The notes under the pieces are model-generated. The model made no database searches and was not told the origin of the DNA. It saw nothing but the letters and a program-made list of their open reading frames with translations. A stretch of DNA of 64,000 nt from Coriobacteriia bacterium. Its GTDB lineage: Bacteria; Actinomycetota; Coriobacteriia; Anaerosomatales; PHET01. Below, one piece after another: positions 3,808 through 51,516 of the stretch (position 1 is the first letter of the stretch; each line of letters begins with the position of its first letter). The position numbers and the translations under genes are program-made. The DNA is taken from contig JAXMKZ010000059.1 of the NCBI GenBank assembly GCA_034370385.1, positions 124,001 through 188,000 of the forward strand, written 5' to 3'.

Positions 3808-5482
<1,675 letters not shown>

Positions 5483-5497
5483 GACGGGACCTCAAAG

Positions 5498-7753: not shown

Positions 7754-7822
7754 TCCGTGCGTCGATCGCGCGCGCCTCGGGCATACTGTGCTTATCCGAC
7801 ACGCGCGAGCACGGGAGCCGGC

Positions 7823-26542: not shown

Positions 26543-26583
26543 GTGCACGATTCTAGCGCTCCCGTCGCAATCTTGTGGAACAA

Positions 26584-26645: not shown

Positions 26646-27977
26646 CTAGATCACGCTCAGGTAGCGATCCAGCTCCCACTGAGAGACGTCCTTGATGTAG
26701 TCGGTCCACTCGGCCTTCTTGTTCTTGGCGTAGAACGTGTGGATATGCTCGCCGAGGATCTCCTTCATCGCCTCTGACTTCTCGAACCACTCAATGGCCT
26801 CGCCGAGGTTACGCGGCAGGGTCTTGATGCCAGCGGCCTCGAGCTCGGCCGGCGTCATCTCGAAGATGTCGTTGGTGGCTTCAGGCATGAGCTCGAGCTT
26901 CTCCTCGATGCCCTTCAGACCGGCGCCCAGCATGACGGCGAAGGCGAGGTACGGGTTGCACGAGGGGTCCGGCGAACGGAGCTCGATGCGGGTTGCGGCC
27001 TCCTTGCCGGGCTTGTAGAGCGGCACGCGAACCATCGCGGAGCGGTTGGCCTGCGCCCATGAAACGTACACGGGAGCCTCGTAGCCAGGAACCAGTCGCT
27101 TGTACGAGTTCACGAGCGGGTTGGTGATGGCACAGAACTCAGGAGCGTACTTCAGCAGACCGGCGATGTAGTGGCGGCAGGTGTCGCTCAGGAATCCCGG
27201 CTTGGATGCGTCGTAGAACGCGTTGCCATCCTTGGTGAAGAGCGACTGATGGGTGTGCATGCCTGAACCGTTGATGCCGGCGATGGGCTTGGGCATGAAC
27301 GTGGCATACACGCCGTTGGCCATGGCGACTTCCTTGACCACGAGGCGGTACGTCATGACCGCGTCGGCCATGGTGAGCGCCTCCTGGTAGCGCAGGTCGA
27401 TCTCGTGCTGCGACGGGGCGACCTCGTGGTGCGAGTACTCGACCGGGATGCCCATCTTCTCGAGGGTCAGCACGGTCTCGCGACGCAGGTCGCTCGCGAT
27501 GTCGAGCGGAGTGAGGTCGAAGTAGCCACCCTTGTCGATGATCTGGGTGCCTTCGTCATCTGCGAAGTAGAAGAACTCGAGCTCAGGACCGACGTACATG
27601 GTGTAGCCCATGTCCCCGGCCTTCTTGAGCATGCGCTTGAGAGCATAGCGAGGGTCACCATCGAACGGCTGGCCGTCGGGCGTAGTGATGTCGGCGAAGA
27701 TGCGGCCGACGCCCTGCTCGGACGGACGCCACGGAAGGATCTGGAACGTGGAAGCATCAGGGAACGCGACCATGTCGGACTCCTGGATGCGGGTGAAGCC
27801 GTCGATCGAGGATCCGTCGAAGCCCATGCCCTCCTCGAACGCACCTTCGAGCTCGCTGTCGGTGACGGCGAACGACTTCAGAACGCCGAGCACGTCCGTG
27901 AACCAGAAGCGGATGAACTTGACGTCGCGCTCCTCGACGGTCTTGAGGACATAGTCCTTGTCGAATGACATCGGCAT
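26646..27977 (-). CDS. glnA: glutamine synthetase type I (alpha subtype)
   Basis: A 443-aa enzyme making glutamine from glutamate, ammonia and ATP. GMGFDGSSIDGF, GPELEFFYF, PKPIAGINGSGMHTHQSLF, NRSAMVRVP and ELRSPDPSCNPYLAFA are the beta-Asp-loop, metal, ammonium and ATP-site motifs. The length and the absence of an NLYDLPP-like adenylylation tyrosine place it with GSI-alpha, which is controlled by feedback inhibition rather than by adenylylation. The ATG at 27977 has GGGAGG 8 nt upstream. Upstream lies the repeat element with GAAAC half-sites; downstream is the GlnR-like regulator. Confidence 0.97.
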   Translation of the reverse strand: MPMSFDKDYVLKTVEERDVKFIRFWFTDVLGVLKSFAVTDSELEGAFEEGMGFDGSSIDGFTRIQESDMVAFPDASTFQILPWRPSEQGVGRIFADITTPDGQPFDGDPRYALKRMLKKAGDMGYTMYVGPELEFFYFADDEGTQIIDKGGYFDLTPLDIASDLRRETVLTLEKMGIPVEYSHHEVAPSQHEIDLRYQEALTMADAVMTYRLVVKEVAMANGVYATFMPKPIAGINGSGMHTHQSLFTKDGNAFYDASKPGFLSDTCRHYIAGLLKYAPEFCAITNPLVNSYKRLVPGYEAPVYVSWAQANRSAMVRVPLYKPGKEAATRIELRSPDPSCNPYLAFAVMLGAGLKGIEEKLELMPEATNDIFEMTPAELEAAGIKTLPRNLGEAIEWFEKSEAMKEILGEHIHTFYAKNKKAEWTDYIKDVSQWELDRYLSVI

Positions 27978-28067
27978 ACGTGTGACCTCCCTTTCCCGGC
28001 ACGCCTGTCAGGCGTGCCCGCCGGTGACGTTATTCATACGTCGTGGGCAGCAAGATACACGGTCAAT

Positions 28068-28089
28068 GTTTCGGAGTTGTTTCGGTTTC
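28068..28089 (-). promoter_or_regulatory. GlnR-like box upstream of glnA
   Basis: On the minus strand three GAAAC half-sites occur (28085-28089, 28079-28083 and 28068-28072), the last two separated by exactly six bases. A TATGAA -10-like hexamer lies at 28033-28038, placing the box about 40-60 bp upstream of the presumed transcription start, a usual activator position. Confidence 0.55.
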
Positions 28090-28101
28090 GCCCCGAACGC
28101 A

Positions 28102-28127
28102 GAAGGCCGCCCCAAGAGGCGGCCTTC
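28102..28127 (-). terminator. hairpin terminator of the giant cytochrome gene
   Basis: GAAGGCCGCC (28102-28111) and GGCGGCCTTC (28118-28127) form a perfect 10-bp stem with a 6-nt loop, 27 bp after the giant gene's stop. It is symmetric and could act in both directions; there is no long U-tract. Confidence 0.7.
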
Positions 28128-28153
28128 GCGTGATCTGAACACCAGGGTGTTGC

Positions 28154-31100
28154 CTACGGCCACACCGGACCAAGATCGGGGTGGGGCCAACTGCCGCAAC
28201 CAGCACAGTCACTTGCCGGCCAGTCGTTCGGTGTCCGGTTTCGCAGCTTGATGTTCTTGAGCGGTCCCCTCGCGTAAGGGCTTCGATAAGCTGCCGGGTC
28301 ACTCGAGTTGATGAGAAGCCTCGGGCGCTTCCAGCCATGCGGAATCGCGATGTGACAGGACGTGCACTTCATCGTGTCATCGTACTCGCGCGTGTGGATC
28401 TTGTTGCCGGCTCCCTGCGCGAGCGCACGCGCGCCGTGTGCATCGTTCTGGGTGGGGCTGAACACGTGGCACTTGGTGCAGATAACCTGGCCCGTTGGCC
28501 ACACGTTGTCCGGCTCGCGCCAGTCGAGTGAGGCTTGGCGATAGTCCGCAGGATACGCCGGATCGATGAGGAAGCGCACGCTCGAGCCGTGCGGCCCCTT
28601 CGCCGACGACATCGCACCTGAGGTATGGCAGTCCGAGCACGTCACAGCCGAGTTGCGGGTCCATCCTGGCTTGAGGAAGCTCGCATCCGGGGGCAACGTC
28701 CAGGTGTAGGTTGTCCCGTCCACCAGGAACGAGTCCTTCATCCCCTTCGAAAGACCAAGGACATTGTGGAAGCTCTGGTTGTTCGGGTTGAACTCTGCCG
28801 CCAGGTCGGTGGAGGTGTAGGGAACCCCTCCTGATGTCGCCGCAGCGGGGCGTCCAGAAGCCGACGTGTGGCACTTGAAGCACACGTAGGCCTCAACGTC
28901 GCCCGGGCGACCCAGGAGCCGCGTCGCCGTGTAGCTGGTGAGCGTCGACCCCGGCGTGCTGCCCCAGATCGGCTTGAGTCCCGTGGCACCAAGCAGTGCA
29001 GGAGATGCGATGGGTACTCCGCCGGCAAGACGGTCGCCCGCGGGCTGCGCGGCGTGCGGGTCGTGGCAGTCGGTGCACTCCGCGTGTCGCTTCGTCCCGT
29101 TGTCGACTGCCGACTCTGCGTCGGAGTGCAGGCCGGACGCTGATGGATCGTGTCGATAAGGCAGCAAGACGACCGACGCTACATCCTGCGCCCCCGGTGC
29201 CTGCGTGCCGACGACCCCGTTGCCGTGACACTGGAAGCACAGTTTCTCTTCGAAGCCGGCGCTCGACGTGTTGTCGCGCGTGCCGGCCCGCCCGCCGACG
29301 AAGCCCGTGGGCTTCGTCCACGCGGTGAGTCGTGGGTTCTGAGACGCGTGCGGGTCATGGCAGTTCTCACACAGTGCTTTGGTGCCCGAAGTCGTGAAAT
29401 GCCCCGACTTCTTGAATGCGGCCGGACCGACATCCTTCTCCCAGCCGGGGAAGAAGGAGTCGCTGCCAAACACGCTGAATCCGATGTCATAGGGCACCAC
29501 GTTGCCGGCTGATATCGCGCGGCTCAGGTTGCCGCTCGAGTGGCACTCAAGACAGAACGTCGTCATGTCGGTAGGCCTAAGGGTCGTGTTGCCCGGCTGT
29601 GAGACACGCACTACGTCCCACGCCCCCGCACCCTTCTCAACCGTGTGAGAGTTGTGGCAGCTGGCGCAGCTCAACGATGCGACTCCTGAGTTATCGTCCA
29701 CAGGAATGCGAGCAGTGACACTCCAGCCGCGAAGCGAGGGTGTAATGGTCTCTGAGTTCGTGACGAGCTGCGCCGTGAGGCGAATCCGGCGATACGCGGA
29801 TGAATCGATTCCCGAAAGATCAAGGGGGCCATACCGCTTGTTCGCCATACCGGGAAGCGCCGTCCAGCTCGCTCCATTCCAGCCCTCGACCGACATGTAG
29901 AGCTCTGTCCCCAGTGGCTCGAAACTGGCCCAGGCGAACTCTCCCCAGCCTATTGCGTCCGCAGGCAGGTCGATCTCAGCACGCATTGTGCCCGAAGCCA
30001 GGTATCCGGTGACCGGTATGTTGGCGGTCGAAACGCGCAGGAACGCCATCGAACCGTTGCGGACTTCGCCGAGTGCCGTGGGCGGCGTGGGAAGCAACTC
30101 CCATGTGCCCCAATCGCCGGTGAGCGGGTCGGCCGGTACTCGGATGCGTCCGGGGTTCGGGCCGCTGTTCTCGTGCAGCGCGTAGATGTAGTCGCCCCCG
30201 TCCCACAGAAGCTTTGTGCCTTTCCCGCCGTGGTACCAGAAGAATTCGGGTAGCGGAGTCATGGAGTGGACCCCCGAAGCGAGCCCGCTGATCAGGTACG
30301 CCCTCTGACCTCCAAAGGCGTCCGAGGTCGGCCCCTCGTAGACCAAGTAGTCGGTCCCCCCCAAGGTGAAGCGCGTCAAACCCATGTACAGGTCGCCGCT
30401 GCCCCACGTGCTCCCGGGCTGTGCAAGCACCTGCTGGCTGTAGGTGGCCTGGCCCGAAGCGGTCGACGGTGAATCGACCCAGCGAATCACGGGCGCCTGG
30501 TTGAAGTTCTTCGTCACCGCGTAGAGCCGGTCATTGATGGGCGAGTAGGCGAAGTCGGAGCTCGTGAAGTCGATGGGCGTGCCGCCAGCGCTCTTCATGA
30601 CGAACGGAGCCATCCACGTATCAGTAGGTGCGAACCATCGGTAGACGGTGCCTGCCGTGTTGTTTCCTGCGTAGTATACAAGCCCTGCATCAGGGTCAGC
30701 AGAAGACAGCACATGCCTGTCCGCGACGAACGGGAGCGGACTCAGCGAGTTCCACGAGTCGGGGCTTGAAACGTTGATCGGGGTGTAGGACATCCTCGTG
30801 TCGAATCCCTGCCCCACGCTCCACACGAACTTACCCTGCACCGCGAGCCCGCTGCTGCCGTAGTACGCAGTTCCCGCCGCCGGATTCGTGGGATCGTAAC
30901 TGTGACCGTTCCACACGTTCAGGTCCGGGTCGTACTGCGAGAAGGACCGAGGATCCGGATGGACGCTCTCCGGTGCCAAGAACAGAAGCGGGCGGGTCAC
31001 AGACGGAATCGTCCAGCTATCCCACAGCAGCTGCGCGCCCATAGTGGACGAAGCCGAGACCTGGAAGCTGTTGTTCGCAGCAAGTTCGATCGGCGTCGAT

Positions 31101-34100
31101 TGGGTGAACACGCCGACCGTCTCTTCTCGAGTGGTACCTACGGACGACGCTCCCTCGACCGGATGCGCACTCGGTCGGGCGAACTCAACCGCGAGATCGC
31201 GACCGTTCCACGTGTTGGGCACCGGGGTCCGCGTCTCGTCGCCGCTGGCAGAGTGGCACTCGAAGCACAGTGCCGACTGCCCCTGTCTGCCGCCTGCAGT
31301 CCGGAACTCGGTGGCCGCGCCTGCGCCGATCGCGTTGTGGTTGTGGCACGCCTCGCACGCGGTGTTCGACGGCACGGCGCCGTCAGAACCAGCCATCACG
31401 GATGATCCGTGGGCCGACCCTGCGTAACCTGCGCCATGATCACCGCCGGTGTTGTTCCAGGTGCCCGCTCCGACGAGCGCATCGATCGCAGCACTGGAAG
31501 CGCCGTGACAGTCAAGGCACAGCCCGTTGCCCGCAGCGTTCGGGGCATGGGTGCTCGGGTGACAGGCGTTGCAGTCCTTAGACCACGTGGCCGCCGGTAC
31601 GGATCGCACTCCGGCCACGTACTCCGGCGAGTTGTGACACTCGACACACCCAACAGCGCTGCGCCGACCAGCGTCCTTGGCGTGCTCCTTGGAGACCGCG
31701 GTCTCATGGCAGTTCTTCGTGCAACTGAGGCTCATGCTCACGTCGTGCACGGTGGGCAGCCCCGCGTGACGCTGCTCCGTCGTCCCCGGAGTGTGGCAAC
31801 CGCCCTGCTGGCAGGACTGGTTCCAGGACCCGAACGTACGGCGCGGGTTGTCGTGACAGGTGGCGCAGCCCTTGGCAGAAGTCACCGAGCCCTTGCGCGT
31901 GTGCTCCGCCATGAGGTCCATCGAGTGGCACGCATCGCAGCGCGCGCCACTGACGGGCTCGATGGATGCCCCTGAGTCCGCGACGTGATCGACATCTTCA
32001 TAGCCGTGCGCGGTCACGCGGTCCGGGTGGCAGGACTGCGTGCACGCCGGCGCAACAGCGGAGGGCTGCTTGTCCCAGACAAGGAACTCGTCCACCGCCA
32101 CGGCGATGCCTGAAGAACCAGCCGGACGCACGCCCGTGACGCGCACTGAGACCGTATGGGGTCCACGAACGAGCGTGCTTGACGTGAACAGCGTCGTCTT
32201 GTCGACGACTGTCGGAGAGTAGCCATTGATTGTCGCGACGACGACGCCGTCGATCGAGACCTCGAGTTCGCCGAAGTTGGGTCCTTTACCGCCACTGATG
32301 GCAACCTTGGTGCCCATGAACGAAATGCCCAGCGTCGAACCTTTCACAACCGAAGCGCTGCGGCGTTGCATCGAGTAAGCGGTCTTCGTCTGCGTCATCC
32401 ACGTTCCGGTCTTCACCACCGTGTTCGCGGGCTTCGTGCCGATCGCCGCATGGGTGAAGTCCTCGAAAGACACCGGCTCGGCCTCGGCCAGACCTGCGGT
32501 GTTGTGACACTCGCCGATTCCGCACTGCTGGAACGACTCGGTGACCGAGACAAACGACTGGTCCTCGCCCACCACGCCGTAGCAGATGCGTGTGGCGACG
32601 GGGGCTCTCGCGGTGTAGCGGGGATTGCCGATACTGCTGTGCTCGGCATGCAGGGGGGACAACGCGCCCGAGTGACAGGCCTCGCACGCAGCAGGAGCGT
32701 GACAGCTGCTGCACTTGGAGTCTCCCTTGGTGATCGAACCGGGCCAACGAACGGCAGCGTGTATCACATGAAGATCGCCCGAGGTCGTATCCTTCGAGCC
32801 CAACGAGGCAAAGGATCCGTAGGGCGTGATCTTCGTTGGGGTCGCAGCCAGCGTGCTCGCGCCCATCAGCCCCCTGTGGCACACCGCGCCGCAGTTGCCG
32901 CCTGCATAGTGATTGGGGTGCGTGCCCGCAAGCCCGTACGTGTGGCAGCGAGGACATGCCGTCTCTCGGTCCACCTTCTGGACGCCGAAGTTGACCGCCA
33001 TCTGGGGTGGAGCCCCCGCCGCGCCATGGCACGTGATGCACGGTGCATTGCTGGTTGTGGTCCCGCTCCCTCCGCCGGAAGCCACGTAGTCAACAACGAC
33101 GTCGAGCGAGTGACGGCTCTCCACATGGCCCAACAGATCGACCGACCAGTACTCGACCGTGGTTGTTCCCTCGTCCGCAACGATGATCGCTGTCTGATCC
33201 GCGGTGAACGGCCGGACCTGGCCGCCGTTAATCCGATAGTACGTCTGCGCGACCCCTACGCCAGCGTCCGTCGCCATCGGCACAAGCTCCACGACAGCCG
33301 CGCTGACGCCTGCAGGCGCGCCCAAGAGCACGGTGTGCGGCGGACTGTAGTCGATCCGGATAGTGCCGGTCTTCTTCGGGGATTCGATGTTGCCCATCAG
33401 GTCCCACGCCCAGTACTCGACGGTGTGCGTGCCCTCGTCGGACACGGTCACCGGTACCGAGTACGGCATGTCGGGACCGCCGTCGATACGGTAGCTGGTG
33501 CCGCTCCATCCGCTGAGCGCATCCGTGGACACGATCGAGAACGTCTGAGGCGTCTTGCGCCACGTGTCATCGATCGTCGACACCGAGCCCGGGAATGAGG
33601 TGTCTATCGTCAGCGTCTCAACGTGAGCTGGCTCCGCGTTGCCGGCGACATCGACCGCCCACCAGCGCAGGGTATGGATCCCATCGCCGATGACGATGGG
33701 CGCCGAGTAGGTACTCGCCGCAGACCCATCGACCTGGTAGCGAACGCCAGCCATTCCTGACAGCGCATCAGTCGCGGCGATGGAGATGACCGCGTCCGTC
33801 GGCGACCATCCGGTCGGAATCCCGGTAGCCGTGCTACTGGGCGGCGTGAAGTCCACCGACACCGTCTGGCTGCGTTCGCTGTAGGCGCCGGCACGGTTGC
33901 TGGCCTCCACCCGCACGAGGTGGCTGCCCTCAGTCAAGCGGTAGGTGGCGGTGTGTACGTCGTATGCATACGTATGGTTCTCATATGCCCTCGGCGACCC
34001 ATTCAGCCAGACGTGATGGGAGTTCACGCCAGACAACGCATCCGTCGCAGAGACGCTCAGGGTGTCCGTCGCAAGCCAGCCCGCTGACGGGATGTTCCAG

Positions 34101-37100
34101 CCGATGACGGGCGCAGTACTGTCAACGAGCACGTAGCCGTACTTGGGTGCTTCAGCATTCCCGTACAAGTCGACCGACCAGTAGCCCACCAGCGTGGTGC
34201 CCTCGGTGCTGATTGCTACTTCCGAGGTATACGTCGTCGGTGACCCACCGTCGAAGTTATAGAACGTATGTGCGACGCCGGCCCCGGGATCGGTCGCGGC
34301 GAGGGTGAACGTCCCATCCCATCCCCACCAGCGCGGGATGCCTGTTGCGGTCGTGACCGGTGGCGTGTAGTCGAAGCCGATGCGGTCGCCGACCACAGAG
34401 ACGTTACCTGCGATGTCGCGGAAGCCGAATGCGATGTTGGTGTCGAGCCCACCGCGCTCCACGAACACCGCCGCGGTCGGAATGACCGACTGCCATGCGG
34501 ACGGCATGATCGCAGTCGGCACCCACGTCGAGACGCCTACCGTCCCCGCGCCGGTACCCAGCTCGCCGTAGACGTTGCCCCCCCACGTGTAGACGGCGCC
34601 GTCTCGCTTCAGCGCAACGACCGATGCCGTGCCTGCGTCGAGCGCGACCCAGTCGGTGGCTGCATCGATGCGCCGCGGAACGGTGGGGGCGTTGCCCGTT
34701 GCGGTCTGGTAGCGATCGGAACGACCCCATGCCCACAAAGAGCCGTCAGTGCGAATGCCCGTCGAGAAGTCATCACCGGCCGACAGCGACTGCCAGCCCA
34801 CCGACCCCAGCGCCTGTGGCGTGTTGTAGCTACTGGCGGCCCCGGAGTTGCCTATCTGCCCGTAGGTGTTGTTGCCCCACACGTAGGCCGAACCGTCCGT
34901 GCGCAAGCCCATCGCGTGCGAAGAGCCCGCGGAGACTGACGCCCAGTTGGTCGCCGTGCCGACCTGTATGGGTGCGGACGCAAATGTGCCTGCCCCGATC
35001 CCAAGCTGATACTGAGACCCCGTACCCCACACCCAGAGAGTTCCGTCGTTTCGGACCGCCATCGAGTAGGTGGATCCGGCTGAGATGGCCGTGAACACCA
35101 ATCCCGCGCCCGAGACCTTCGTGGGGAGGGGCTTGTCCTGAACGTCTGCCCCGAGTCCGAGAGCACCGTTGCCACCGTACCCCCACGCCCATACGGATCC
35201 GTCTTTCTTGAGGCCCAGACTGTGGTTGGCCCCCGCCGCTATCTTGGCCCATTCGCCGGCCGCGCCAACCTGAGCGGCCGTCCTACCGAACGGACCCCCG
35301 ATGTGCCCGGTGCCGACCGCCCCATACCTCTCCGAGCCCCAGCCATACAGCGTGCCGTCTGCGGCGAGCCCCAGCGCATGCTCGATGCCGTAGCTGACCG
35401 CAACGAAGTCACGCAAAGGCGTCGATGACACCGGCGTCGAGCGATTCGTCGAGGTAGTGTCGCCGAGTTTCTTGACTGGGTTGTAACCCATGGAGTGAAG
35501 TCGTCCATCACCACGGATGAGGCCGATGCTGTTGCCGCCTGCCGCCACGGCGGTGAACGGCGTATCCTTCGTCATCTCAACTGCGAAGGGCACGGTTATG
35601 CTGGCGACCACCGTCTGCGTCCCTGCCCAGGCAGCGCCCCCCTCGACGACAACCGTCCCCGGTGTTGCTGCGGTGTTGAGCGTGATCGAGTCAGTCAACG
35701 ACCCGATATTGCCGGCGGCATCCACGACCTTCACGTTGACGTTCTTGACGCCGTTGCCCGCCGGCAAGGTGAACCGGTGCTGTGGCGTGTAGCTGAACCA
35801 GTCGGCACGAACCGGAGCGGGCCGTACGACACCGGTCTCGTTGCCGTACAGTGCCACCGGGAAGCCCCAGACCCACAACTCTCCAGAGTTGTCGGTAGCC
35901 ATGCTGACACTGTCACCATTGGCGACCGACGCCCAGTTGTTCGCTAGACCTACCCGTACCGGAGTCAGTCTGGTCTGGGAAGTGCCGTCGCCCACCTGAC
36001 CATCGGAGTTGTAGCCCCAGCCCCAAAGTGACCCGTCCGCCTTCACCGCGGTGGCGTGATACTCGCCGCCGGCCACGGACTTGTAACCCGTGCCTATGAG
36101 GGTCGGGACGAGTCTATCCGTCGTCGTGCCGTCTCCGATCTGCCCGTAGCTGTTGGATCCCCACGCGTAGAGATCGCCGTTGGCACGCACGGCATACGTC
36201 GTGGTTCCACGCGCCGAGACCGAGATCCAGTCGGTGAATCCGCTCGTGCCGTTCGGCTGCACGGGCGTCGACATGACGCTCTGGGTGTTGTCGCCTACCT
36301 GTCCGGAAGTATTGAAGCCCCACGTCCAGAGCGAACCATTCGTGCGAATACCCACGAACGTGTCGCCGCTACCGCCGGACACGGCCTTCCACGTTGTGCC
36401 AGCTTGGACGTTGACGGGCGTGAGTTGCGGGGTGACCGAGTTGCCAAGGCCGCACTGCCCCTGGCCGTTGTGACCCCAGGTATACAGGGCGCCGCCTGTG
36501 GTGATGGCAGCTCCGCTCTGGCCCCCGACGGTGACCGTCGACCAGTTGCTCGCGGTACCAAGCCGGATAGGTAGGCGCACCGGGGCGAAGCCGGATACCC
36601 CAAGCTGCCCGCCCTGACTGTCGCCCCACACCCACAGCGACCCGTCCGTCTTGACCCCGGCAGCGAAGTAGTCGTGAACTGCAACCGACCTGTACGTGGC
36701 TCCGTCGCCCGCCTGAGCGAAGACCCCCGGCACGTGGTTCGTCGTGGAGAGGCCGTTGCCGGTGTACACGAAGTATTCGTCCGTACCGCGTCCCCACAGC
36801 GTTCCATCGCCCCGGACGCCGAGCATCGTCTTGGAGCCGATTGTAATCTGACCCCACCCCGCCGGAGGCTCGGTCCGGATGCCCACCGCGTCCGAGCTCA
36901 CGGAGGTCACCGCAACCGCCGTGCGGAATCTCGTCGAGGCATCTCCTGCGTTGATTGAGAACGTCCCCGTGGGAGCCTGTGTATCGAGAATAATCTGACT
37001 GGCGAACTCGGTGATTCTCCCGTACTCGTCACGGAAGAGGACCGAAAGCTGCTTCGGGCCGTCGCCCGGATCGACAGCCATGGTGGCGACCGCTGAGTAC

Positions 37101-40100
37101 GGCTGCCATTCGCCAGACCCGAGCTTCATGTCCACCACACTGGTGATCTTCGAGACCACCGGCACCGTGATCGTGTTGATGGCGGTGGCGTCGTTGGCGA
37201 AAGAAACCGTGCCGGTGGGAGCCGGGGCGAGTATGTAACGGAAGGTCATCAAGTGCGGCGTTTCACGGTTGCCCGCCACGTCGATGCTCCAGTACTCGAG
37301 CAAGTGCTCCCCTTGGGTCAGGGGCGGCTCGATGGGTGCCTCACGGGGAGCGCCGCCATCGAGCGAGTACCACGTCGACCCGAGGCCCGAGAGGCCGTCC
37401 GTCGCGTGCAAGACAGGCATGGTGTCCCACGGCCAGGTGTCGTCGCACGTGGTCACCGGCGCAGTGCCATCGACCTGGACGCGCACGGTCTCGGTCGGAT
37501 CCACGTGGCCGAGCGCATCGACGGACCAGTAGTAGAGGGTGTGGTCACCTTCGCCGACCATGAACGGTGCCGAGTACTCAGTCACGGCGCCGTTGTCGAG
37601 GCGGTAGTAGGCGATCACTGAAGAGACCGTGTCGAACGCCGTTATGCTGATCTCAACTGACTCGGTCGACCAGCCCACTGGGATCGAGCTGATCGTGGTG
37701 GTCGGAGGGAGCACGTCGAAGACCTCGCTCCGAATCTCCTCGACGTTGCCTGCGGCGTCAACGCTCCAGAACTCCAGGTGCATATCGGAGGTGCCAAGCG
37801 GGATCGGCGCCGTGTAGGTGGCGGCTGCGGAACCGTTGACGCGATACCTGGTGCCGACTGAACCCGAGACCGCGTCGACCGGCGTGAGCTCGACCGCGGT
37901 GCCGCCGAGCAGGCTCGCGGCGGTCACCGGTGGGGCGGTGTCGACCTTCACGGTCACCGTATGCGTGGGATCGACATGCCCCGCCCCGTCAACCGACCAA
38001 TAGCGAAGCGTATGTGTGCCGTCACCGATTGTGAACGGCGCCGTGTAGGTGGTGACCACGCCACCGTCCAGCGTGTAGTACGCGGTCGGCGGCGCCGCGA
38101 TATCCTCGGCGATTATCGTCACTTCGACGGTCTTAGTAGACCAGCCGCTCGGAAGCGGCGTCGTTGTTGTGGTCGGCGGGTTGTGGTCGTAGACGAAGTT
38201 GACGGTCTTGGTCGTCTCGATGTTGCCGGCCTTGTCGATGCTCCCGTACTCGAGGGTATGGGGGCCTTCCGTGACAGCGGGAAGCGGAAAGGCGATCGGC
38301 TTCGCCGGTTCCGAATCGAACGAGTACCAGGTCGACGCGATGCCGGAGAGCGAGTCGGTAGCGCTGAGGTAGATGGCGCCATCGTGGAACACACCTTCAG
38401 TGACCGTGGACGTCGTGACCGGCGCGACGTAGTCGATCTTCACGTCGTAGGTCTGCGCACCCTCGATCTTGCCGGTCGCGTCGACGGCCCAGAAGGTGAT
38501 CCTGGTGACCCCCGGGTCAGACACCTCGAACGGCGCCGTGTAGGTCGTGGTGACGCCCTCGCCAAGTCGGTAGTACGTCGTAGTCGGGGAGCAGTCGTCG
38601 TAAGTGAACAACTGGATCCGCACGGGGGTCTGCGACCAGCCGTAGGGAGTCGCCAGTATCGAGGTTTCAGGCGGCGCGACGTCCACAAAAGCGGTTGAAC
38701 TGAGCCAGTCGATGTTGCCCGGCTCGTCGCGGTATCCGACACGAAAAGTCGTCGTCCCCAGTGCCCAGTCGATTTCGATGGTCTTGTCCGCCTGGTAAGG
38801 CTCCCAAATCGCGGGTGGCGGATTCCAGTCCTGCAACCAGGCCGGCTGCACGGGCCAGGGTGAGCTGTTCCAGCGGGGCGTACGGACCGGACCCAGAACG
38901 CCATGCCCGTTGGTGCCCCAGCCGTACACCGCACCGTCGGTCGTGGACGCGAGCATGCCGGTCGGCCCTGCCGCCACGAGCGACCATTCCGTCCCGGTGC
39001 CCACACGAAGCGGAGTGCGACGCGTCTCATACGTGCCATCGCACAGCTGACCGAGAGAGTTGTCACCCCAGACCCAAAGCGACCCGTCCGCGCGGATAGC
39101 TGCACTGGAGGAAGTGCCACCGTACGAACCGCTCGCGGAGACGCGCTGCCAACTGCCGGAGTCGATCAGTGTTGGAGCGGTGCGGTCGCTGCCGCCGCCG
39201 TTGCCGATCTCACCGTTGGCGTTGCTGCCCCACGCCCAGAGCGTGTTGTCGGTGCGGATGCCCAGGGAGTGATTGTGTCCCGCGGAAACGGACTTCCAGC
39301 CTGTGCTGATGAGCACGGGGGCTTCTCGGCCGGTACGGGTTCCGTCACCGACTTGTCCGTAGTAGTTCTCGCCCGATGCGTACAGTGTGCCGTCATCGGT
39401 CAGCAGCAGCATGTGCTGACTGCCGAGGGATGCCTGACGGTAACGGATGCCGGTGAGCGGGCCGCCGCCGCGGTACACGAGTCCCGAGTCGCCGCTCGGG
39501 GAACCCCACGTGTACAGCGAGCCGTCGGTTCGAACGGCGGCGCTGGCATTACCGTATGCGGCGACTGCGACCCATCCGTCCGCATCGATCATCTTGGGCG
39601 AGGTAACGGGCGTCGCGCTGGCTCCAGCGCCATCGCCGAGCTGACCCGAGGTGTCCGATCCCCAGACCCATAGCGACCCATCGTTCTTGATCGCAAGGGT
39701 GTGGGCGGCCCCCATCGCGACGGCCTTCCAGGCCTGATGCCCCGGCGTGCGCGTGTAGGCCGAGCGCTGCGAGGTGGTCCCGTCACCGAGCTGGCCTGCC
39801 CAGTTCGCGCCGGTTGCGTGAAGCGGCCCGTCTTGGGAGACGATGAACGAAGAATCGCTCTGGTAGCCTCCGTCGTAGGGATACCAGTACCCGGAGCTGA
39901 AACCGAGGGCGAGCGGCGGCTGCGCTATACGCATCTCCGTAGCGGTCGGCACGCTCGAGGCGATCGCGATCGAATGACCACCCAGACTGGTCGCCGTCAT
40001 CGTCCCGACCGACTGGCCCGGATTGAGCACAATGTTGTCCTGCGCGGTGGTGGCGTTCCCCGCCGCGTCCTTGTAGGCGCAAGCGAACCCGGTCGTACCC

Positions 40101-42955
40101 GAGGCGGCTGGCAGCGGGCGGACGAGCGACGCCTCATACGGCATCCAGTCGGTGTTGATCGGGTAACGCACGTTGTTGGTGGTGCCATCGCCGAGTTGAC
40201 CGTAGCCGTTCGCGCCCCAGGCCCACAGCTTGCCATCGCTTCGAACGGCGACTGTGCTGGCACCACCCGAATCAAGCGCTGAGAAGTTCAGGGACGCGTC
40301 AAGCGCGAGAGGGAGGACGCGTGCGACGGTACTCTCGCCAGCCGTCTGGCCGAGGTCGTTGGCCCCGACGCCCCACGGTGTTCCGTCATGCTTGACGGCG
40401 ATGATGAACCGGTCTCCGGCGCTGGCCCTGAGCCAGGTGCCGTCGAGTTGCGTGAGCGTCGACGCGGTCATCTCACCCAGGCGACCAGACCAGTGAAGCG
40501 TCCCGTCGCTGCGCAGCGCGGCCAGCGTCTCGGCGCCAGCACTGATCGACGTCCAGGCCGGCTCGGCCCCTGACACCAACACGGGAGCGTGCTGGTCGCC
40601 GACCGCACCGTTGCCCATCTGCCCCGAGTCATTCGCTCCCCAGGCCCACAGCGCACCGGCCGAGTCGATAGCGTACGAAGAGTCGCCGCCCGCAGCGATC
40701 GCAGTGAACGTCATCCATGGCGTTACCTGGCTCGGGAGGTCGCTTGAGCTCAAGCCGCCGTCACCGAGCTGTCCACGCTCGCCCTTCCCCCAAGCGAACA
40801 AGCGCCCGTCCGTGGTCAGTGCGAGCGTGTGATTCTCGCCGGCAGCGACCAAGCTCCACTGGCCTCCGCCTGGCACCGCCACCTGGCTCGCCAGCTGGCG
40901 ATCGGCGCGAATGCCCTCGTTGCCAACATCGCCAAGCTGCCCGGACTCGTTGGCGCCGAACATCCAGAGCGTTCCGTCGGCCTTGATCGCACCGGTGTGG
41001 GAACCCCCGGCAGCCACCGCGGTCCACGTGCCGCCCGGCACACGCACCGGCGTCGAGCGCTGCAAGACCCCGTCTCCGAGTTGCCCCCTGGCACCGTCGC
41101 CCCATGTCCACAAGGAACCGTCGGTCCGCAACGCGGCCGCATGCGACCCACCGACCGACACGGACTTCCACGTCGACGGATAGCCGATACGCATCGAGAC
41201 AGCGTCGGAGAAGTCCGAATCGATGGTGACCTTCCGGCCTCGCGTGGAGGTCGCGGCGTGGTTCAACGCCATCGTCCCGAGCGGAGCCTGCCGGTCGAGC
41301 GTTATCGAGTCGCTCGCGCTGAATTCGGTGAGTGTCGCGTCGCGAAACCTCACCGCAACCGTGTACTCGCCGTCGGCGTCGGGCAGCGTGTAGGGCGCGG
41401 AACCGGCGGCGGGCACCCATTCCCCACCTTCGATCGACATCTCCACCGCGGTCGGTGCGTCGATCTCCAGCGTGACCGCCGTCGACTGTGCATACGGCGC
41501 GCCCCAGTTGATGGCGACGCTCGTAGTGCCCCCTCTGAAGTCATAGGCGACCTCATCGGTCAGCGTTCGCGTTGCCCCACCCGCGTCGCGAAACATCACC
41601 GATACCACCTGCGTGCCCGACGCGCCGTCATCGGCCGGCAAGAGATACGGACGCATCGGCGAGTACGATTCCCAGTGCCCGATCTGCATTGGCGTGCTCA
41701 CCATGGCATCCGAGTCGTTACCCAGGAATCGACCGTCGCCCCAACCCCACAGGTCACCGCCACTCACGGCGAAGCATGCGGTCCACGGGACCGCTGCGAC
41801 CATGTTGCAGTACGGCAGGCCAACGACCTGCGCCGGGCTGGATGCGTATTCGGCACCCAGATTGCCCCACCAATACATGGTTCCGTTCGCACAAGCCACC
41901 GATGCGTAGGCTGCAGTCGCTATGTCGTTGAAGCTGGTACCGACGGCGACGGGCATCGGCCCGAACATCGCTCCACCCGAGAACCCGAGCCCCAGCGACC
42001 CGATGTAGTTGTCGCCCCATGCGTAGAGCGACCCGTCCGCCTTGAGCCCGAGAACGTGTGTGCTGACTTCGCCCATCGAGACCTTGAGCCAGTCGTTATC
42101 CGTGCCCACCTGCGTCGGCGTCGATGTGTTAGCGCCATCTCCGGTCCCAAGCTGGCCCGTCATATTGGATCCCCAGGCCCACAACGACCCGTCCGTCTTG
42201 ATCGCGAAGCTGGACCGGTTGCCCGCAAATGCGGTCACCCAGTCGGTATCGGTACCCACTTGGACCGGTCCAGACGTCCCGGGGGTATCGTTGCCGAGCT
42301 GGCCTAGATCGTTCTCACCCCACGCCCAGAGCTCGCCGCTCCTGATGGCGAGAACGTGCGTATTGCCTGCTGACACGTCGGTCCAGCCCGCTTCGGACCC
42401 GATCTGCCGAGGAGTACCCTGCTGCGGTGCCATATCGCCATATTGTCCGTACCAGTTGTCGCCCCAGGCCCAGAGCGTCCCATCAGCCTTGCGCGCGATA
42501 CTGCACGCGAAACCGGCCGAGATCTGGACCCAATCGTTGTCGCTCCCGATCATCACCGGGGTGGCCCGGAATGGCCCTCTGGGCGCTCCGCATGGCTCCC
42601 AGCGGTTCACGCCCCACGCCCACACCGTACCGTCGGTGGCAAGCACCAACGTGTGCTCCATGCCGCTGTCGATCGAGGCAATCGGGGGAACGAAACGCAT
42701 CGCGTCCGCATCGGTGACATCCGAGTAGAGCGTCACCGTGCGCCTCGTCACGACGGGTGCATCGTTCTCGATGGTCATGCTCGCGCTCGGATCGCCGAGC
42801 GCCGCGTAAGCAACTCCCGCCCCGAACAGACACAAGATGGCAGCGAGGGCGACAAAGAACGGCTGGCGCGCGCCGAACCCACGCGAACCTGCGATTAGCG
42901 TAGTGAACACAGTCGTCCCCCGCTCGGTACGGGACCGCGCTCGCGCGCAATCCAC
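28154..42955 (-). CDS. giant secreted RCC1-repeat/Ig-like/multiheme cytochrome c protein
   Basis: A 4,933-aa exported protein in a single open frame. The signal peptide is at about residues 30-52 (FFVALAAILCLFGAGVAYAA). Five blocks of RCC1-type propeller repeats (WAWGxNxxGQLGDG) lie near residues 85-430, 600-935, 1015-1390, 2035-2385 and 2470-2825. Ig-like/OmpL47-type repeats (e.g. YWSVDGAGHVDP) lie near 1400-1920 and 2840-3285. Heme motifs start near 3305 (CITCH). There are 16 up to about residue 3910, then a kelch-like beta domain (about 3985-4390), then 9 more between 4430 and 4865. I count 20 CxxCH, three CX3CH and two CX4CH. No membrane anchor or sorting signal was seen. The likely role is extracellular electron transfer or surface contact. 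GTG 42910 is an alternative start. Confidence 0.9.
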   Translation of the reverse strand: MDCARARSRTERGTTVFTTLIAGSRGFGARQPFFVALAAILCLFGAGVAYAALGDPSASMTIENDAPVVTRRTVTLYSDVTDADAMRFVPPIASIDSGMEHTLVLATDGTVWAWGVNRWEPCGAPRGPFRATPVMIGSDNDWVQISAGFACSIARKADGTLWAWGDNWYGQYGDMAPQQGTPRQIGSEAGWTDVSAGNTHVLAIRSGELWAWGENDLGQLGNDTPGTSGPVQVGTDTDWVTAFAGNRSSFAIKTDGSLWAWGSNMTGQLGTGDGANTSTPTQVGTDNDWLKVSMGEVSTHVLGLKADGSLYAWGDNYIGSLGLGFSGGAMFGPMPVAVGTSFNDIATAAYASVACANGTMYWWGNLGAEYASSPAQVVGLPYCNMVAAVPWTACFAVSGGDLWGWGDGRFLGNDSDAMVSTPMQIGHWESYSPMRPYLLPADDGASGTQVVSVMFRDAGGATRTLTDEVAYDFRGGTTSVAINWGAPYAQSTAVTLEIDAPTAVEMSIEGGEWVPAAGSAPYTLPDADGEYTVAVRFRDATLTEFSASDSITLDRQAPLGTMALNHAATSTRGRKVTIDSDFSDAVSMRIGYPSTWKSVSVGGSHAAALRTDGSLWTWGDGARGQLGDGVLQRSTPVRVPGGTWTAVAAGGSHTGAIKADGTLWMFGANESGQLGDVGNEGIRADRQLASQVAVPGGGQWSLVAAGENHTLALTTDGRLFAWGKGERGQLGDGGLSSSDLPSQVTPWMTFTAIAAGGDSSYAIDSAGALWAWGANDSGQMGNGAVGDQHAPVLVSGAEPAWTSISAGAETLAALRSDGTLHWSGRLGEMTASTLTQLDGTWLRASAGDRFIIAVKHDGTPWGVGANDLGQTAGESTVARVLPLALDASLNFSALDSGGASTVAVRSDGKLWAWGANGYGQLGDGTTNNVRYPINTDWMPYEASLVRPLPAASGTTGFACAYKDAAGNATTAQDNIVLNPGQSVGTMTATSLGGHSIAIASSVPTATEMRIAQPPLALGFSSGYWYPYDGGYQSDSSFIVSQDGPLHATGANWAGQLGDGTTSQRSAYTRTPGHQAWKAVAMGAAHTLAIKNDGSLWVWGSDTSGQLGDGAGASATPVTSPKMIDADGWVAVAAYGNASAAVRTDGSLYTWGSPSGDSGLVYRGGGPLTGIRYRQASLGSQHMLLLTDDGTLYASGENYYGQVGDGTRTGREAPVLISTGWKSVSAGHNHSLGIRTDNTLWAWGSNANGEIGNGGGSDRTAPTLIDSGSWQRVSASGSYGGTSSSAAIRADGSLWVWGDNSLGQLCDGTYETRRTPLRVGTGTEWSLVAAGPTGMLASTTDGAVYGWGTNGHGVLGPVRTPRWNSSPWPVQPAWLQDWNPPPAIWEPYQADKTIEIDWALGTTTFRVGYRDEPGNIDWLSSTAFVDVAPPETSILATPYGWSQTPVRIQLFTYDDCSPTTTYYRLGEGVTTTYTAPFEVSDPGVTRITFWAVDATGKIEGAQTYDVKIDYVAPVTTSTVTEGVFHDGAIYLSATDSLSGIASTWYSFDSEPAKPIAFPLPAVTEGPHTLEYGSIDKAGNIETTKTVNFVYDHNPPTTTTTPLPSGWSTKTVEVTIIAEDIAAPPTAYYTLDGGVVTTYTAPFTIGDGTHTLRYWSVDGAGHVDPTHTVTVKVDTAPPVTAASLLGGTAVELTPVDAVSGSVGTRYRVNGSAAATYTAPIPLGTSDMHLEFWSVDAAGNVEEIRSEVFDVLPPTTTISSIPVGWSTESVEISITAFDTVSSVIAYYRLDNGAVTEYSAPFMVGEGDHTLYYWSVDALGHVDPTETVRVQVDGTAPVTTCDDTWPWDTMPVLHATDGLSGLGSTWYSLDGGAPREAPIEPPLTQGEHLLEYWSIDVAGNRETPHLMTFRYILAPAPTGTVSFANDATAINTITVPVVSKITSVVDMKLGSGEWQPYSAVATMAVDPGDGPKQLSVLFRDEYGRITEFASQIILDTQAPTGTFSINAGDASTRFRTAVAVTSVSSDAVGIRTEPPAGWGQITIGSKTMLGVRGDGTLWGRGTDEYFVYTGNGLSTTNHVPGVFAQAGDGATYRSVAVHDYFAAGVKTDGSLWVWGDSQGGQLGVSGFAPVRLPIRLGTASNWSTVTVGGQSGAAITTGGALYTWGHNGQGQCGLGNSVTPQLTPVNVQAGTTWKAVSGGSGDTFVGIRTNGSLWTWGFNTSGQVGDNTQSVMSTPVQPNGTSGFTDWISVSARGTTTYAVRANGDLYAWGSNSYGQIGDGTTTDRLVPTLIGTGYKSVAGGEYHATAVKADGSLWGWGYNSDGQVGDGTSQTRLTPVRVGLANNWASVANGDSVSMATDNSGELWVWGFPVALYGNETGVVRPAPVRADWFSYTPQHRFTLPAGNGVKNVNVKVVDAAGNIGSLTDSITLNTAATPGTVVVEGGAAWAGTQTVVASITVPFAVEMTKDTPFTAVAAGGNSIGLIRGDGRLHSMGYNPVKKLGDTTSTNRSTPVSSTPLRDFVAVSYGIEHALGLAADGTLYGWGSERYGAVGTGHIGGPFGRTAAQVGAAGEWAKIAAGANHSLGLKKDGSVWAWGYGGNGALGLGADVQDKPLPTKVSGAGLVFTAISAGSTYSMAVRNDGTLWVWGTGSQYQLGIGAGTFASAPIQVGTATNWASVSAGSSHAMGLRTDGSAYVWGNNTYGQIGNSGAASSYNTPQALGSVGWQSLSAGDDFSTGIRTDGSLWAWGRSDRYQTATGNAPTVPRRIDAATDWVALDAGTASVVALKRDGAVYTWGGNVYGELGTGAGTVGVSTWVPTAIMPSAWQSVIPTAAVFVERGGLDTNIAFGFRDIAGNVSVVGDRIGFDYTPPVTTATGIPRWWGWDGTFTLAATDPGAGVAHTFYNFDGGSPTTYTSEVAISTEGTTLVGYWSVDLYGNAEAPKYGYVLVDSTAPVIGWNIPSAGWLATDTLSVSATDALSGVNSHHVWLNGSPRAYENHTYAYDVHTATYRLTEGSHLVRVEASNRAGAYSERSQTVSVDFTPPSSTATGIPTGWSPTDAVISIAATDALSGMAGVRYQVDGSAASTYSAPIVIGDGIHTLRWWAVDVAGNAEPAHVETLTIDTSFPGSVSTIDDTWRKTPQTFSIVSTDALSGWSGTSYRIDGGPDMPYSVPVTVSDEGTHTVEYWAWDLMGNIESPKKTGTIRIDYSPPHTVLLGAPAGVSAAVVELVPMATDAGVGVAQTYYRINGGQVRPFTADQTAIIVADEGTTTVEYWSVDLLGHVESRHSLDVVVDYVASGGGSGTTTSNAPCITCHGAAGAPPQMAVNFGVQKVDRETACPRCHTYGLAGTHPNHYAGGNCGAVCHRGLMGASTLAATPTKITPYGSFASLGSKDTTSGDLHVIHAAVRWPGSITKGDSKCSSCHAPAACEACHSGALSPLHAEHSSIGNPRYTARAPVATRICYGVVGEDQSFVSVTESFQQCGIGECHNTAGLAEAEPVSFEDFTHAAIGTKPANTVVKTGTWMTQTKTAYSMQRRSASVVKGSTLGISFMGTKVAISGGKGPNFGELEVSIDGVVVATINGYSPTVVDKTTLFTSSTLVRGPHTVSVRVTGVRPAGSSGIAVAVDEFLVWDKQPSAVAPACTQSCHPDRVTAHGYEDVDHVADSGASIEPVSGARCDACHSMDLMAEHTRKGSVTSAKGCATCHDNPRRTFGSWNQSCQQGGCHTPGTTEQRHAGLPTVHDVSMSLSCTKNCHETAVSKEHAKDAGRRSAVGCVECHNSPEYVAGVRSVPAATWSKDCNACHPSTHAPNAAGNGLCLDCHGASSAAIDALVGAGTWNNTGGDHGAGYAGSAHGSSVMAGSDGAVPSNTACEACHNHNAIGAGAATEFRTAGGRQGQSALCFECHSASGDETRTPVPNTWNGRDLAVEFARPSAHPVEGASSVGTTREETVGVFTQSTPIELAANNSFQVSASSTMGAQLLWDSWTIPSVTRPLLFLAPESVHPDPRSFSQYDPDLNVWNGHSYDPTNPAAGTAYYGSSGLAVQGKFVWSVGQGFDTRMSYTPINVSSPDSWNSLSPLPFVADRHVLSSADPDAGLVYYAGNNTAGTVYRWFAPTDTWMAPFVMKSAGGTPIDFTSSDFAYSPINDRLYAVTKNFNQAPVIRWVDSPSTASGQATYSQQVLAQPGSTWGSGDLYMGLTRFTLGGTDYLVYEGPTSDAFGGQRAYLISGLASGVHSMTPLPEFFWYHGGKGTKLLWDGGDYIYALHENSGPNPGRIRVPADPLTGDWGTWELLPTPPTALGEVRNGSMAFLRVSTANIPVTGYLASGTMRAEIDLPADAIGWGEFAWASFEPLGTELYMSVEGWNGASWTALPGMANKRYGPLDLSGIDSSAYRRIRLTAQLVTNSETITPSLRGWSVTARIPVDDNSGVASLSCASCHNSHTVEKGAGAWDVVRVSQPGNTTLRPTDMTTFCLECHSSGNLSRAISAGNVVPYDIGFSVFGSDSFFPGWEKDVGPAAFKKSGHFTTSGTKALCENCHDPHASQNPRLTAWTKPTGFVGGRAGTRDNTSSAGFEEKLCFQCHGNGVVGTQAPGAQDVASVVLLPYRHDPSASGLHSDAESAVDNGTKRHAECTDCHDPHAAQPAGDRLAGGVPIASPALLGATGLKPIWGSTPGSTLTSYTATRLLGRPGDVEAYVCFKCHTSASGRPAAATSGGVPYTSTDLAAEFNPNNQSFHNVLGLSKGMKDSFLVDGTTYTWTLPPDASFLKPGWTRNSAVTCSDCHTSGAMSSAKGPHGSSVRFLIDPAYPADYRQASLDWREPDNVWPTGQVICTKCHVFSPTQNDAHGARALAQGAGNKIHTREYDDTMKCTSCHIAIPHGWKRPRLLINSSDPAAYRSPYARGPLKNIKLRNRTPNDWPASDCAGCGSWPHPDLGPVWP

Positions 42956-43086: not shown

Positions 43087-43116
43087 ATTATGTACGCGCG
43101 CTATAGAGAACGTCAA
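43087..43116 (-). promoter_or_regulatory. promoter of the giant cytochrome gene
   Basis: The minus strand has TTGACG (43111-43116), an 18-bp spacer and CATAAT (43087-43092), a good housekeeping-type promoter about 130 bp before the start codon. It is the clearest -35/-10 pair I noticed in the window. Confidence 0.6.
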
Positions 43117-43168
43117 GGATTCTTCATAGAGGAGCCCTACGTCGTTCGCAGCAAGATGCGGGGTTTGT

Positions 43169-43184
43169 GGTTCGGAGTTGTTTC
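43169..43184 (-). promoter_or_regulatory. GlnR-like box variant upstream of the giant gene
   Basis: On the minus strand GAAAC (43180-43184) is followed after six bases by GAACC (43169-43173), one mismatch from the glnA version. It lies about 90 bp before the presumed start of transcription, so activity is uncertain. Confidence 0.35.
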
Positions 43185-43202
43185 GGTTTCGCCCCGAACG
43201 CA

Positions 43203-43228
43203 GAAGGCCGCCCCAAGAGGCGGCCTTC
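43203..43228 (-). terminator. hairpin terminator of the hdr-glt operon
   Basis: The stem (43203-43212 with 43219-43228) and loop are identical to those at 28102-28127. It lies about 110 bp downstream of the gltB3 stop. Confidence 0.65.
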
Positions 43229-43338
43229 GCGCACTACGAGACGATGGAATCGCCGCGCCCTCTGTCCGTTTCGTCCCAACCAGATGCAACCGTTGACGAT
43301 ACGAAACGGCCAATCAGGCGTGGCGATGGATGAATCGT

Positions 43339-44157
43339 CTACACGTACGTGTACATCTTCCCGTACGGCCGGTGCGAGATGGGCACGAGCCGCGTGAACG
43401 GTACCGACAGCACCTCGTCGACATCGAATCCGACGGCCGAGCAGTACTCCTCCAGCAGCGGCTTGAGCTCAGCCAGCTCCTCGTCGGTCATCGTGAAGAT
43501 GCCGCACTCCTTGCCAACCTGCCAGCTCTCCACCTCGCCGCGCAGGATTATCTCGCCGCCGTGCATGCCGGTGCCGACGTACCCTCCCACCAGCGGACCT
43601 TCGAGCCGTGAGTGCATGCCGAGAAGGATGAGCAGGCCGCCGGCCATGTACTCGCCGAAGAAGTCGCGCGCTTTGCCACCGCAGATCATCGTGGGTCGCA
43701 GATCCTCGAACGCCTTCATGTGAATGCCCACGCGGTAACCGACGTCGCCCTTGATGAAGACGCGTCCGCCGCGCATGCCGTAGCCCAGAACGTCACCGGC
43801 CGAGCCATGCACGATGACGGTGCCCGCATTCATGGTGTTGCCGACGCCATCCTGCGCGTTGCCGAACACCTCCACGGTCGGGCCGTCCATCAGCATCGCC
43901 ATGTCCTGCCCCGGGGTGCCGTGCACCTCGATGCGCAGATCCTTGCCCTTGATTCCCGTGCCTATGTAGCGCTGTCCGTTGACGTTCATCAGCTTCACGA
44001 TCTTGACGCCGTCGGCGAAGCACCGCCGGATAGCCTCGTTGACGAACTTGTAGTAGACGCTCTGACACTCGATCGTGGCGGTGTCACCATCGACGGCGAC
44101 AGTCGGCTCGATCTGTAGGTAGCCCTCGATCGGGCCCTTCACGGTAGCTGTAGTCAT
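43339..44157 (-). CDS. glutamate synthase GXGXG-domain subunit (GltB3)
   Basis: A 272-aa stand-alone version of the C-terminal GXGXG beta-helix domain of glutamate synthase large subunit. Repeated motifs are visible: GTGIKGKDLRIEVHG, GDVLGYGMRGGRVFIKGDVGYRVG, GGLLILLG and GYVGTGMHGGEIILRG. In full-length GltB this domain is structural and links the amidotransferase and synthase domains. The ATG at 44157 has GGAGG 7 nt upstream. It is last in the hdrBC-gltB1-gltB2-gltB3 operon, 13 nt after gltB2. Split, archaeal-type glutamate synthase genes of this kind occur in many anaerobes. Confidence 0.92.
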   Translation of the reverse strand: MTTATVKGPIEGYLQIEPTVAVDGDTATIECQSVYYKFVNEAIRRCFADGVKIVKLMNVNGQRYIGTGIKGKDLRIEVHGTPGQDMAMLMDGPTVEVFGNAQDGVGNTMNAGTVIVHGSAGDVLGYGMRGGRVFIKGDVGYRVGIHMKAFEDLRPTMICGGKARDFFGEYMAGGLLILLGMHSRLEGPLVGGYVGTGMHGGEIILRGEVESWQVGKECGIFTMTDEELAELKPLLEEYCSAVGFDVDEVLSVPFTRLVPISHRPYGKMYTYV

Positions 44158-44170
44158 GGTGTCTCCTCCC

Positions 44171-51224: not shown

Positions 51225-51413
51225 CTGAGCTCCCCCTCGAAGGCCGACAGAACGCTCTGTGCCGCGTGCAGCGTCAGAGCGCGGCGCAGCGCGGTCATAC
51301 CGTCCCTCGAAGATACGGCATCGAGGCGGCGGCAACAAACCGCTCCTCTCTGAAAGCGCGTGCCTCTCGTCTGCTGCGGCACGGTGATTCGGTATACTCG
51401 TCGTCGCACTCAT

Positions 51414-51499
51414 GCCCGGGTGGTGGAATGGCAGACACGGAGGTCTCAAAAACCTCTGGGGGAAACCCCGTGTGGGTTCGACTCCCACCCCGGGCACCA
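51414..51499 (+). tRNA. tRNA-Leu (anticodon CAA)
   Basis: An 86-nt class II tRNA with encoded CCA. The acceptor arms GCCCGGG/CCCGGGC pair perfectly. The anticodon stem GAGGT/ACCTC encloses the loop CTCAAAA with anticodon CAA, decoding UUG. A variable arm (TGGGGGAAACCCC) and a T-arm GTGGG-TTCGACT-CCCAC follow. A TATACT -10-like hexamer lies at 51393-51398. Confidence 0.97.
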
Positions 51500-51516
51500 T
51501 CAGCACACGCGGCCCC

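Follow-up and report, generated by a model that had tools for sequence, protein, structure and literature searches.

A 4,933-residue Anaerosomatales protein joining RCC1 propellers, apparently nested in Ig-like domains, to 25 heme motifs

How electrons pass across the thick Gram-positive wall to solids or partners is, to our knowledge, poorly known. The nearest published idea for the protein described herein comes from archaea, where the ANME cytochromes MHC-A, MHC-B and MHC-C are single giant polypeptides with 20-86 heme motifs and with heme-free domains that are thought to cross the outer layer or to bind surfaces (PMC9012536). A gene from a Coriobacteriia bacterium of the order Anaerosomatales, located in a window of 64,000 nucleotides (the whole stretch of DNA analysed), encodes a likewise giant polypeptide in which many heme motifs are fused to heme-free domains; but the archaeal fusions are with S-layer, peptidase-M6-like or pectin-lyase domains, whereas those of the giant are Ig-like and RCC1 domains, and the C-terminal transmembrane helices of MHC-A and MHC-B have no counterpart in it (PMC9012536). 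Within the same order, each genome of the cultivated Anaerosoma and Parvivirga has 17-18 multiheme cytochromes, which are linked to Fe(III) reduction, and one of the strains can grow with Fe(III), while no RCC1 or Ig-propeller fusion is described in the available part of that report (PMC9686372).

As for the heme-free domains, seven-bladed propellers of the same kind are known from RCC1, UVR8 and HERC2 (PF00415/PF25390), but the giant is secreted, has five of them, each apparently within an Ig-like domain, and is fused to hemes. Its two further blocks of Ig-like repeats are like those of OmpL47-type domain proteins (NF047446) and are probably a spacer or rod. In the class Coriobacteriia, wall-bound RCC1 proteins (L093, L107 and L149) also combine RCC1 blocks with beta domains, Ig-like or other, and with 3-6 CxxCH motifs in one frame, yet they differ in that they have CWB2 or sortase-type tails, RCC1 blocks that are not nested and few motifs, and they come from assemblies without a ResB match. 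The first-pass annotation knew of no described system with this architecture, and a literature search covering mostly freely readable journals agrees with it, as no paper was found in which RCC1 and a multiheme cytochrome occur together. Giant cytochromes as such are already known; what seems new here is their join to an apparently Ig-nested RCC1 arm, a combination for which only one relative was found, in the genome G052.

The giant gene is a single uninterrupted frame of 14.8 kb with 4,933 codons and no internal stop, at exactly the coordinates first annotated, to which the minus strand is added here. Its GC3 stays at 0.77-0.83 across all 500-codon blocks, and it is therefore read as a single coding sequence throughout, though translation may in fact begin a few codons later. 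The signal peptide claimed beforehand is recognised by reading the sequence (...FFVALAAILCLFGAGVAYA/ALG), with its end at about residue 51. A search for tandem DNA repeats found none, and the RCC1 DNA repeats have a mutual identity of only 60-80%, so that repeat collapse or mis-joining is unlikely. The features of the gene, all on the minus strand and from N- to C-terminus, are as follows.

28154..42955 (-): giant gene, 4,933 aa, GTG start, stop at 28154-28156
42803..42955 (-): N-terminal signal peptide region, residues 1-51, probable cleavage AYA/ALG as read from sequence
41540..42802 (-): nested unit 1, Ig-like domain with an apparently inserted RCC1 propeller, residues 52-472
41297..41539 (-): uninterrupted Ig-like domain of the same type as the nested units, residues 473-553
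40022..41299 (-): nested unit 2, the unit folded by AlphaFold, residues 553-978
38675..40021 (-): nested unit 3, residues 979-1427
37226..38674 (-): OmpL47-like Ig block A, six repeats, residues 1428-1910
36974..37219 (-): uninterrupted Ig-like domain, residues 1913-1994
35681..36973 (-): nested unit 4, residues 1995-2425
34358..35680 (-): nested unit 5, residues 2426-2866
33071..34357 (-): OmpL47-like Ig block B, five repeats, residues 2867-3295
31253..33040 (-): heme block 1, 16 heme motifs, residues 3306-3901
32117..32368 (-): heme-free beta-domain within heme block 1, CE2 N-terminal domain-like, residues 3530-3613
29681..31243 (-): kelch-like propeller and beta-sandwich, residues 3905-4425
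28352..29668 (-): heme block 2, nine heme motifs, residues 4430-4868
28157..29038 (-): order-specific C-terminal module ending ...WP, residues 4640-4933

The protein thus runs through a signal peptide, an RCC1 block, a plain Ig-like domain, two RCC1 blocks and six OmpL47-like repeats, then through another plain Ig-like domain, two RCC1 blocks and five OmpL47-like repeats, and at last through 16 heme motifs, a kelch-like domain, nine heme motifs and a conserved tail. Most of this plan had been proposed beforehand and is recovered by profile searches: the five RCC1 blocks by Pfam (RCC1 with E=1e-175 over 20 stretches, RCC1_2 over 25 stretches), and the two OmpL47-like blocks, of six and five repeats, by NCBIfam (OmpL47-type domain with E=6e-123 over 10 stretches), where the repeat-domain model alone is passed and the OmpL47 equivalog cut-off is missed (219.8 bits vs 250). 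Cytochrome_C7 and Paired_CXXCH of Pfam are also above cut-off, and the estimate of about 25 heme motifs on both sides of the kelch-like domain became a count of 25, with 16 before and nine after. The kelch-like domain resembles kelch in its AlphaFold model (pLDDT 74), whose best match is to Kelch domains (KLHL12, TM 0.73 on target), but not in sequence, for it has no Pfam hit, kelch repeats included. Among LPxTG, CWB2, SLH and transmembrane segments, no anchor was recognised in the giant by sequence and Pfam; its C-terminus is polar with the last residues GPVWP, and its genome has three sortase genes.

The arrangement of the RCC1 blocks merits closer attention. Before each of them stands a stretch like 'VTIDSDFSDAVSMRI' and after each a stretch like 'W.PY....LPA.DG...V.V.FRDAAGN...DSI.LD', and these are the two halves of the Ig-like domain that is also present uninterrupted at residues 473-553 and 1913-1994. 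When the flanking halves were joined and scored against a profile of the uninterrupted domain, which was built from three uninterrupted copies only and with unit boundaries chosen by eye, they reached 24.8-58.7 bits, while 1,000 control joins, drawn only inside RCC1 blocks, reached at most 8.3. Moreover, the AlphaFold model of unit 2, obtained with eight sequences (pLDDT 88.5, pTM 0.85), has three strands, then 28 strands in seven four-stranded blades, and then three strands; from the model we infer that the two strand triplets pair around the propeller. As the joined halves rebuild the uninterrupted domain and the strands follow this 3+28+3 order, every RCC1 block appears to sit inserted in a loop of one Ig-like domain. 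The fold itself belongs to the RCC1 superfamily, with repeats over the curated cut-off and a seven-bladed propeller in the model, and in Foldseek the top PDB matches of unit 2 are UVR8, RCC1 and HERC2, of which UVR8 is the best (TM 0.75 on query). Such a layout would be a way to mount large rigid binding domains sideways on a rod. A search of the literature on nested propellers, covering mostly freely readable journals, gave nothing relevant. When about 40 automatically cut RCC1 blocks from loci of the class were put to the same test, all scored at most 9.1 bits with the exception of G052, where the first of two blocks cut in this way reached 50.6 bits and the second 10.0, barely separated from the rest; the nesting therefore looks confined to the two RCC1-multiheme proteins, the giant and that of G052.

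Multiheme c-type cytochromes are told by at least four CxxCH-type motifs, far beyond chance, by a signal for export and by a genome that encodes a heme-attachment system. The giant has 20 CxxCH, three CxxxCH and two CxxxxCH motifs, 25 in all and confined to residues 3306-4867, and shuffling of its C-terminal part gives a mean of 0.05 CxxCH with a maximum of 2 in 1,000, vs 18 observed. It has the signal peptide described above, and the absence of a heme-lyase system, which had been named beforehand as a finding against such a protein, is not the case, as two ResB heme-lyase genes are present in the genome, both on contig C19 among three larger cytochromes. Heme block 1 is common to the giant and these three heme-rich paralogues, while its best match is a 1,265-residue protein of the genome G001 (55% identity); in the heme block 1 tree the giant and the G001 protein form a pair (87/93) and G052 stands on a long branch. 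A PDB sequence search with the heme blocks did not find a solved relative of the C-terminal cytochrome, and gave a match only for the CE2-like beta-domain. An L,D-transpeptidase (YkuD) at 53676-54989 of the window also has a CE2-N-like domain, which matches the beta-domain in heme block 1.

The C-terminal part of the giant is not peculiar to it. Residues 3790-4933 can be aligned, through the greater part of this stretch, with the 1,400-residue cytochromes of 15-16 hemes that many genomes of the order encode. The last 294 residues belong to a family with an invariant C..CH..PHGW.RPR...W....P at the end, and the giant has the signature PHGWKRPRL...W..DC..GC..H....WP at its C-terminus (alignment A4). 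Of the 69 genomes of the order, 55 have this module, and a single further one has it in the class sample of 398. Most complete members of the family end in 'WP' and nearly all in P, which indicates that the C-terminus of the giant is native. The near-invariant WP end could be a docking or sorting signal.

The only other protein of the combined type that was found is the 2,015-residue frame of G052, a genome of another family of the order that has ResB as well. In this frame three RCC1 blocks are nested in Ig-like domains of the type seen in the giant, and 15 heme motifs are present; its RCC1 part is 31% identical to the giant over 1,574 residues, and its heme part has the G001 protein as best match. 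In the wider class, PF00415 is found in 45 of the 398 genomes, where RCC1 proteins are common and mostly heme-free. Three further genomes (G003, G072 and G091) have RCC1 proteins with 3-6 CxxCH, whose RCC1 blocks are not nested and which, where examined, have CWB2 or sortase-type tails; no match to ResB was found in these three assemblies, one of which is 75% complete. They look like a different kind of wall protein in which heme is doubtful, and the CxxCH motifs of the following three may bind something other than heme.

L149:8299-13380: RCC1 wall protein, 3-6 CxxCH motifs, assembly without ResB match
L152:4803-9797: RCC1 wall protein, 3-6 CxxCH motifs, assembly without ResB match
L093:1354-13260: RCC1 wall protein, 3-6 CxxCH motifs, assembly without ResB match

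The giant has the glutamate synthase genes on one side and glnA on the other, and beyond glnA come an OmpR-type regulator gene (25877-26548) and polA. This glt-glnA-glnR-polA order is kept across the order Anaerosomatales, usually without an insert, and the gltB-glnA junction of G001 for instance is an empty site. G052 has its RCC1-heme gene in this neighbourhood too, with the regulator gene on one side and polA on the other. The elements around the giant are the following.

26646..27977 (-): glnA (glutamine synthetase), flanking context
28037..28130 (-): direct repeat copy 3' of the giant, hairpin and glnA upstream region, GAAAC-N6-GAAAC
43087..43116 (-): sigma-70-like promoter TTGACG-18-CATAAT 5' of the giant, 10/12 matches, by consensus only
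43138..43231 (-): direct repeat copy 5' of the giant, hairpin and partly decayed glnA upstream region
43339..44346 (-): glutamate synthase GXGXG-domain gene, flanking context

The direct repeat on both sides of the giant is 94 bp long, with copies 90% identical. It is made up of a GC-rich hairpin together with the upstream region of glnA, where two GAAAC boxes stand at a spacing of 11 bp; we take these boxes to recall GlnR operators. The second box is decayed to GAACC in the copy 5' of the giant, and the separate sigma-70-like promoter is nearer to the start. The usual target duplication of a transposon is far shorter than 94 bp, and the gene may have come into the gltB/glnA junction through an event in which about 94 bp from upstream of glnA were duplicated. 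An Rfam scan of the window gave one tRNA alone, with no known riboswitch upstream of the giant. A related multiheme gene of G001 (L085:11133-14927) adjoins tRNA-Leu and pdtaS of this neighbourhood. From these placements we read one gene family that would have moved and swapped modules within a conserved locus, and common ancestry of the two nested proteins is likely. The tRNA-Leu/pdtaS site is empty at 49809-51506 of the window, and so the two genera have reciprocal empty sites, the window being filled at gltB/glnA and G001 at tRNA-Leu/pdtaS. The idea of the glnA locus as a hot spot for multiheme genes was dropped; about 10 of 56 genomes have one within the stretch compared around the locus, which is near a rough expectation.

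We give about an even chance to the reading that the giant is a secreted multiheme c-type cytochrome of anaerobic Coriobacteriia (Anaerosomatales/OPB41) with a long heme-free binding arm, made for extracellular electron transfer. In its layout about 18 Ig-like domains are strung as a rod, five of them with an apparently inserted seven-bladed RCC1 propeller, and about 1,640 residues follow with the 25 heme motifs and the kelch-like propeller between. The C-terminal half, being common with armless cytochromes, would dock into the electron-transfer chain of the envelope and take up electrons, while the N-terminal rod would reach past the wall, with an extended length of roughly 70 nm when each Ig domain is taken as about 4 nm; the propellers, standing sideways on the rod, might then bind a ligand such as a mineral, a polysaccharide or a partner cell and hold it near the conductive half. 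The earlier description of the protein as surface-exposed and as conductive or adhesive agrees with its signal peptide and hemes and with the occurrence, throughout the class, of RCC1 in wall-bound proteins with CWB2 and sortase-type anchors, while the lack of a recognised anchor speaks against the preferred reading. Since we know of no single ligand of bacterial RCC1 propellers, the word adhesive rests on the domain company. With a cytochrome core that is present in most genomes of the order and a binding-type arm, the question of how the wall is crossed would become testable, as arm and core can be produced and assayed separately.

The same domains could also make a wall-associated adhesin or scaffold, whose hemes would serve to store or buffer electrons, or would have a mainly structural role, with no through-wire to an external acceptor. 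Two thirds of the giant are in fact heme-free, the class has many heme-free RCC1 adhesin-like proteins, and the kelch-like domain sets the two heme groups about 520 residues apart, so that a continuous heme chain is not assured; but both heme blocks are common to dedicated multiheme cytochromes, and the 38 non-motif histidines are enough for bis-histidine ligation of 25 hemes, and we hold this reading to be less likely than the preferred one. That the CxxCH motifs hold no heme at all, and serve for example in zinc binding or disulfides, is suggested by the RCC1 proteins of G003, G072 and G091 in assemblies without a ResB match, but becomes very unlikely for the giant, whose genome has its two ResB genes near the largest cytochromes, and both RCC1 proteins with 15-25 motifs come from ResB-positive genomes. 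A chimera of an RCC1 surface protein and a cytochrome might be suspected, and had been raised with the first-pass annotation, in a draft assembly of 65 contigs with repeat blocks, the more so as the full architecture was found in no other genome of the order; it is scarcely credible, however, given the lack of tandem DNA repeats, the divergence of the RCC1 copies, the even codon composition and the conserved native C-terminus, and the independently assembled G052 genome, with the same nested units and hemes in one frame at the same locus, argues directly against it.

Two further readings keep the electron transfer of the preferred one and differ in what the arm is for. The giant might be an intercellular contact protein for direct electron exchange, in which the propellers recognise the surface of a partner and not a mineral, just as the heme-free N-terminal domains of the ANME giant cytochromes have been proposed to recognise partner walls (PMC9012536); but the mineral and partner readings predict the same genomics, and we consider it rather unlikely. 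More speculatively, the giant might stand for an undescribed class of conductive adhesins, in which an exchangeable Ig-nested RCC1 arm selects the acceptor or partner, with the gene set in a locus of nitrogen assimilation and perhaps controlled by a borrowed glnA operator. We hold this to be unlikely; if true, contact or electron discharge would be tied to nitrogen status.

Besides the giant, the order has cytochromes that are even richer in heme motifs, as listed below.

C19, 1813-10272 (L044): 2,820 residues, 53 heme motifs
C19, 10638-20708 (L045): 3,357 residues, 60 heme motifs
C19, 34201-43551 (L046): 3,117 residues, 71 heme motifs
L170:2678-15592: giant cytochrome in a relative, 4,305 aa, 88 heme motifs
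L168:3045-18407: giant cytochrome in a relative, 5,121 aa, 75 heme motifs
L169:2627-16714: giant cytochrome in a relative, 4,696 aa, 61 heme motifs

The first two on C19 share about 70% identity along 2,449 residues, suggesting that they arose by tandem duplication. An in-frame TAG considered in one paralogue was rejected, as it is that paralogue's own stop. The cytochromes of the order thus reach 88 heme motifs per frame, in a frame that runs to the contig end and may be longer, which is close to the 86 of the largest in the ANME set (PMC9012536). Finally, in the genome G029 a protein of 11 heme motifs with CWB2-like repeats (L095:1982-5311) is encoded directly upstream of an RCC1 protein (5463-10406) that bears similar wall-binding repeats, as a two-gene version of a comparable pairing.
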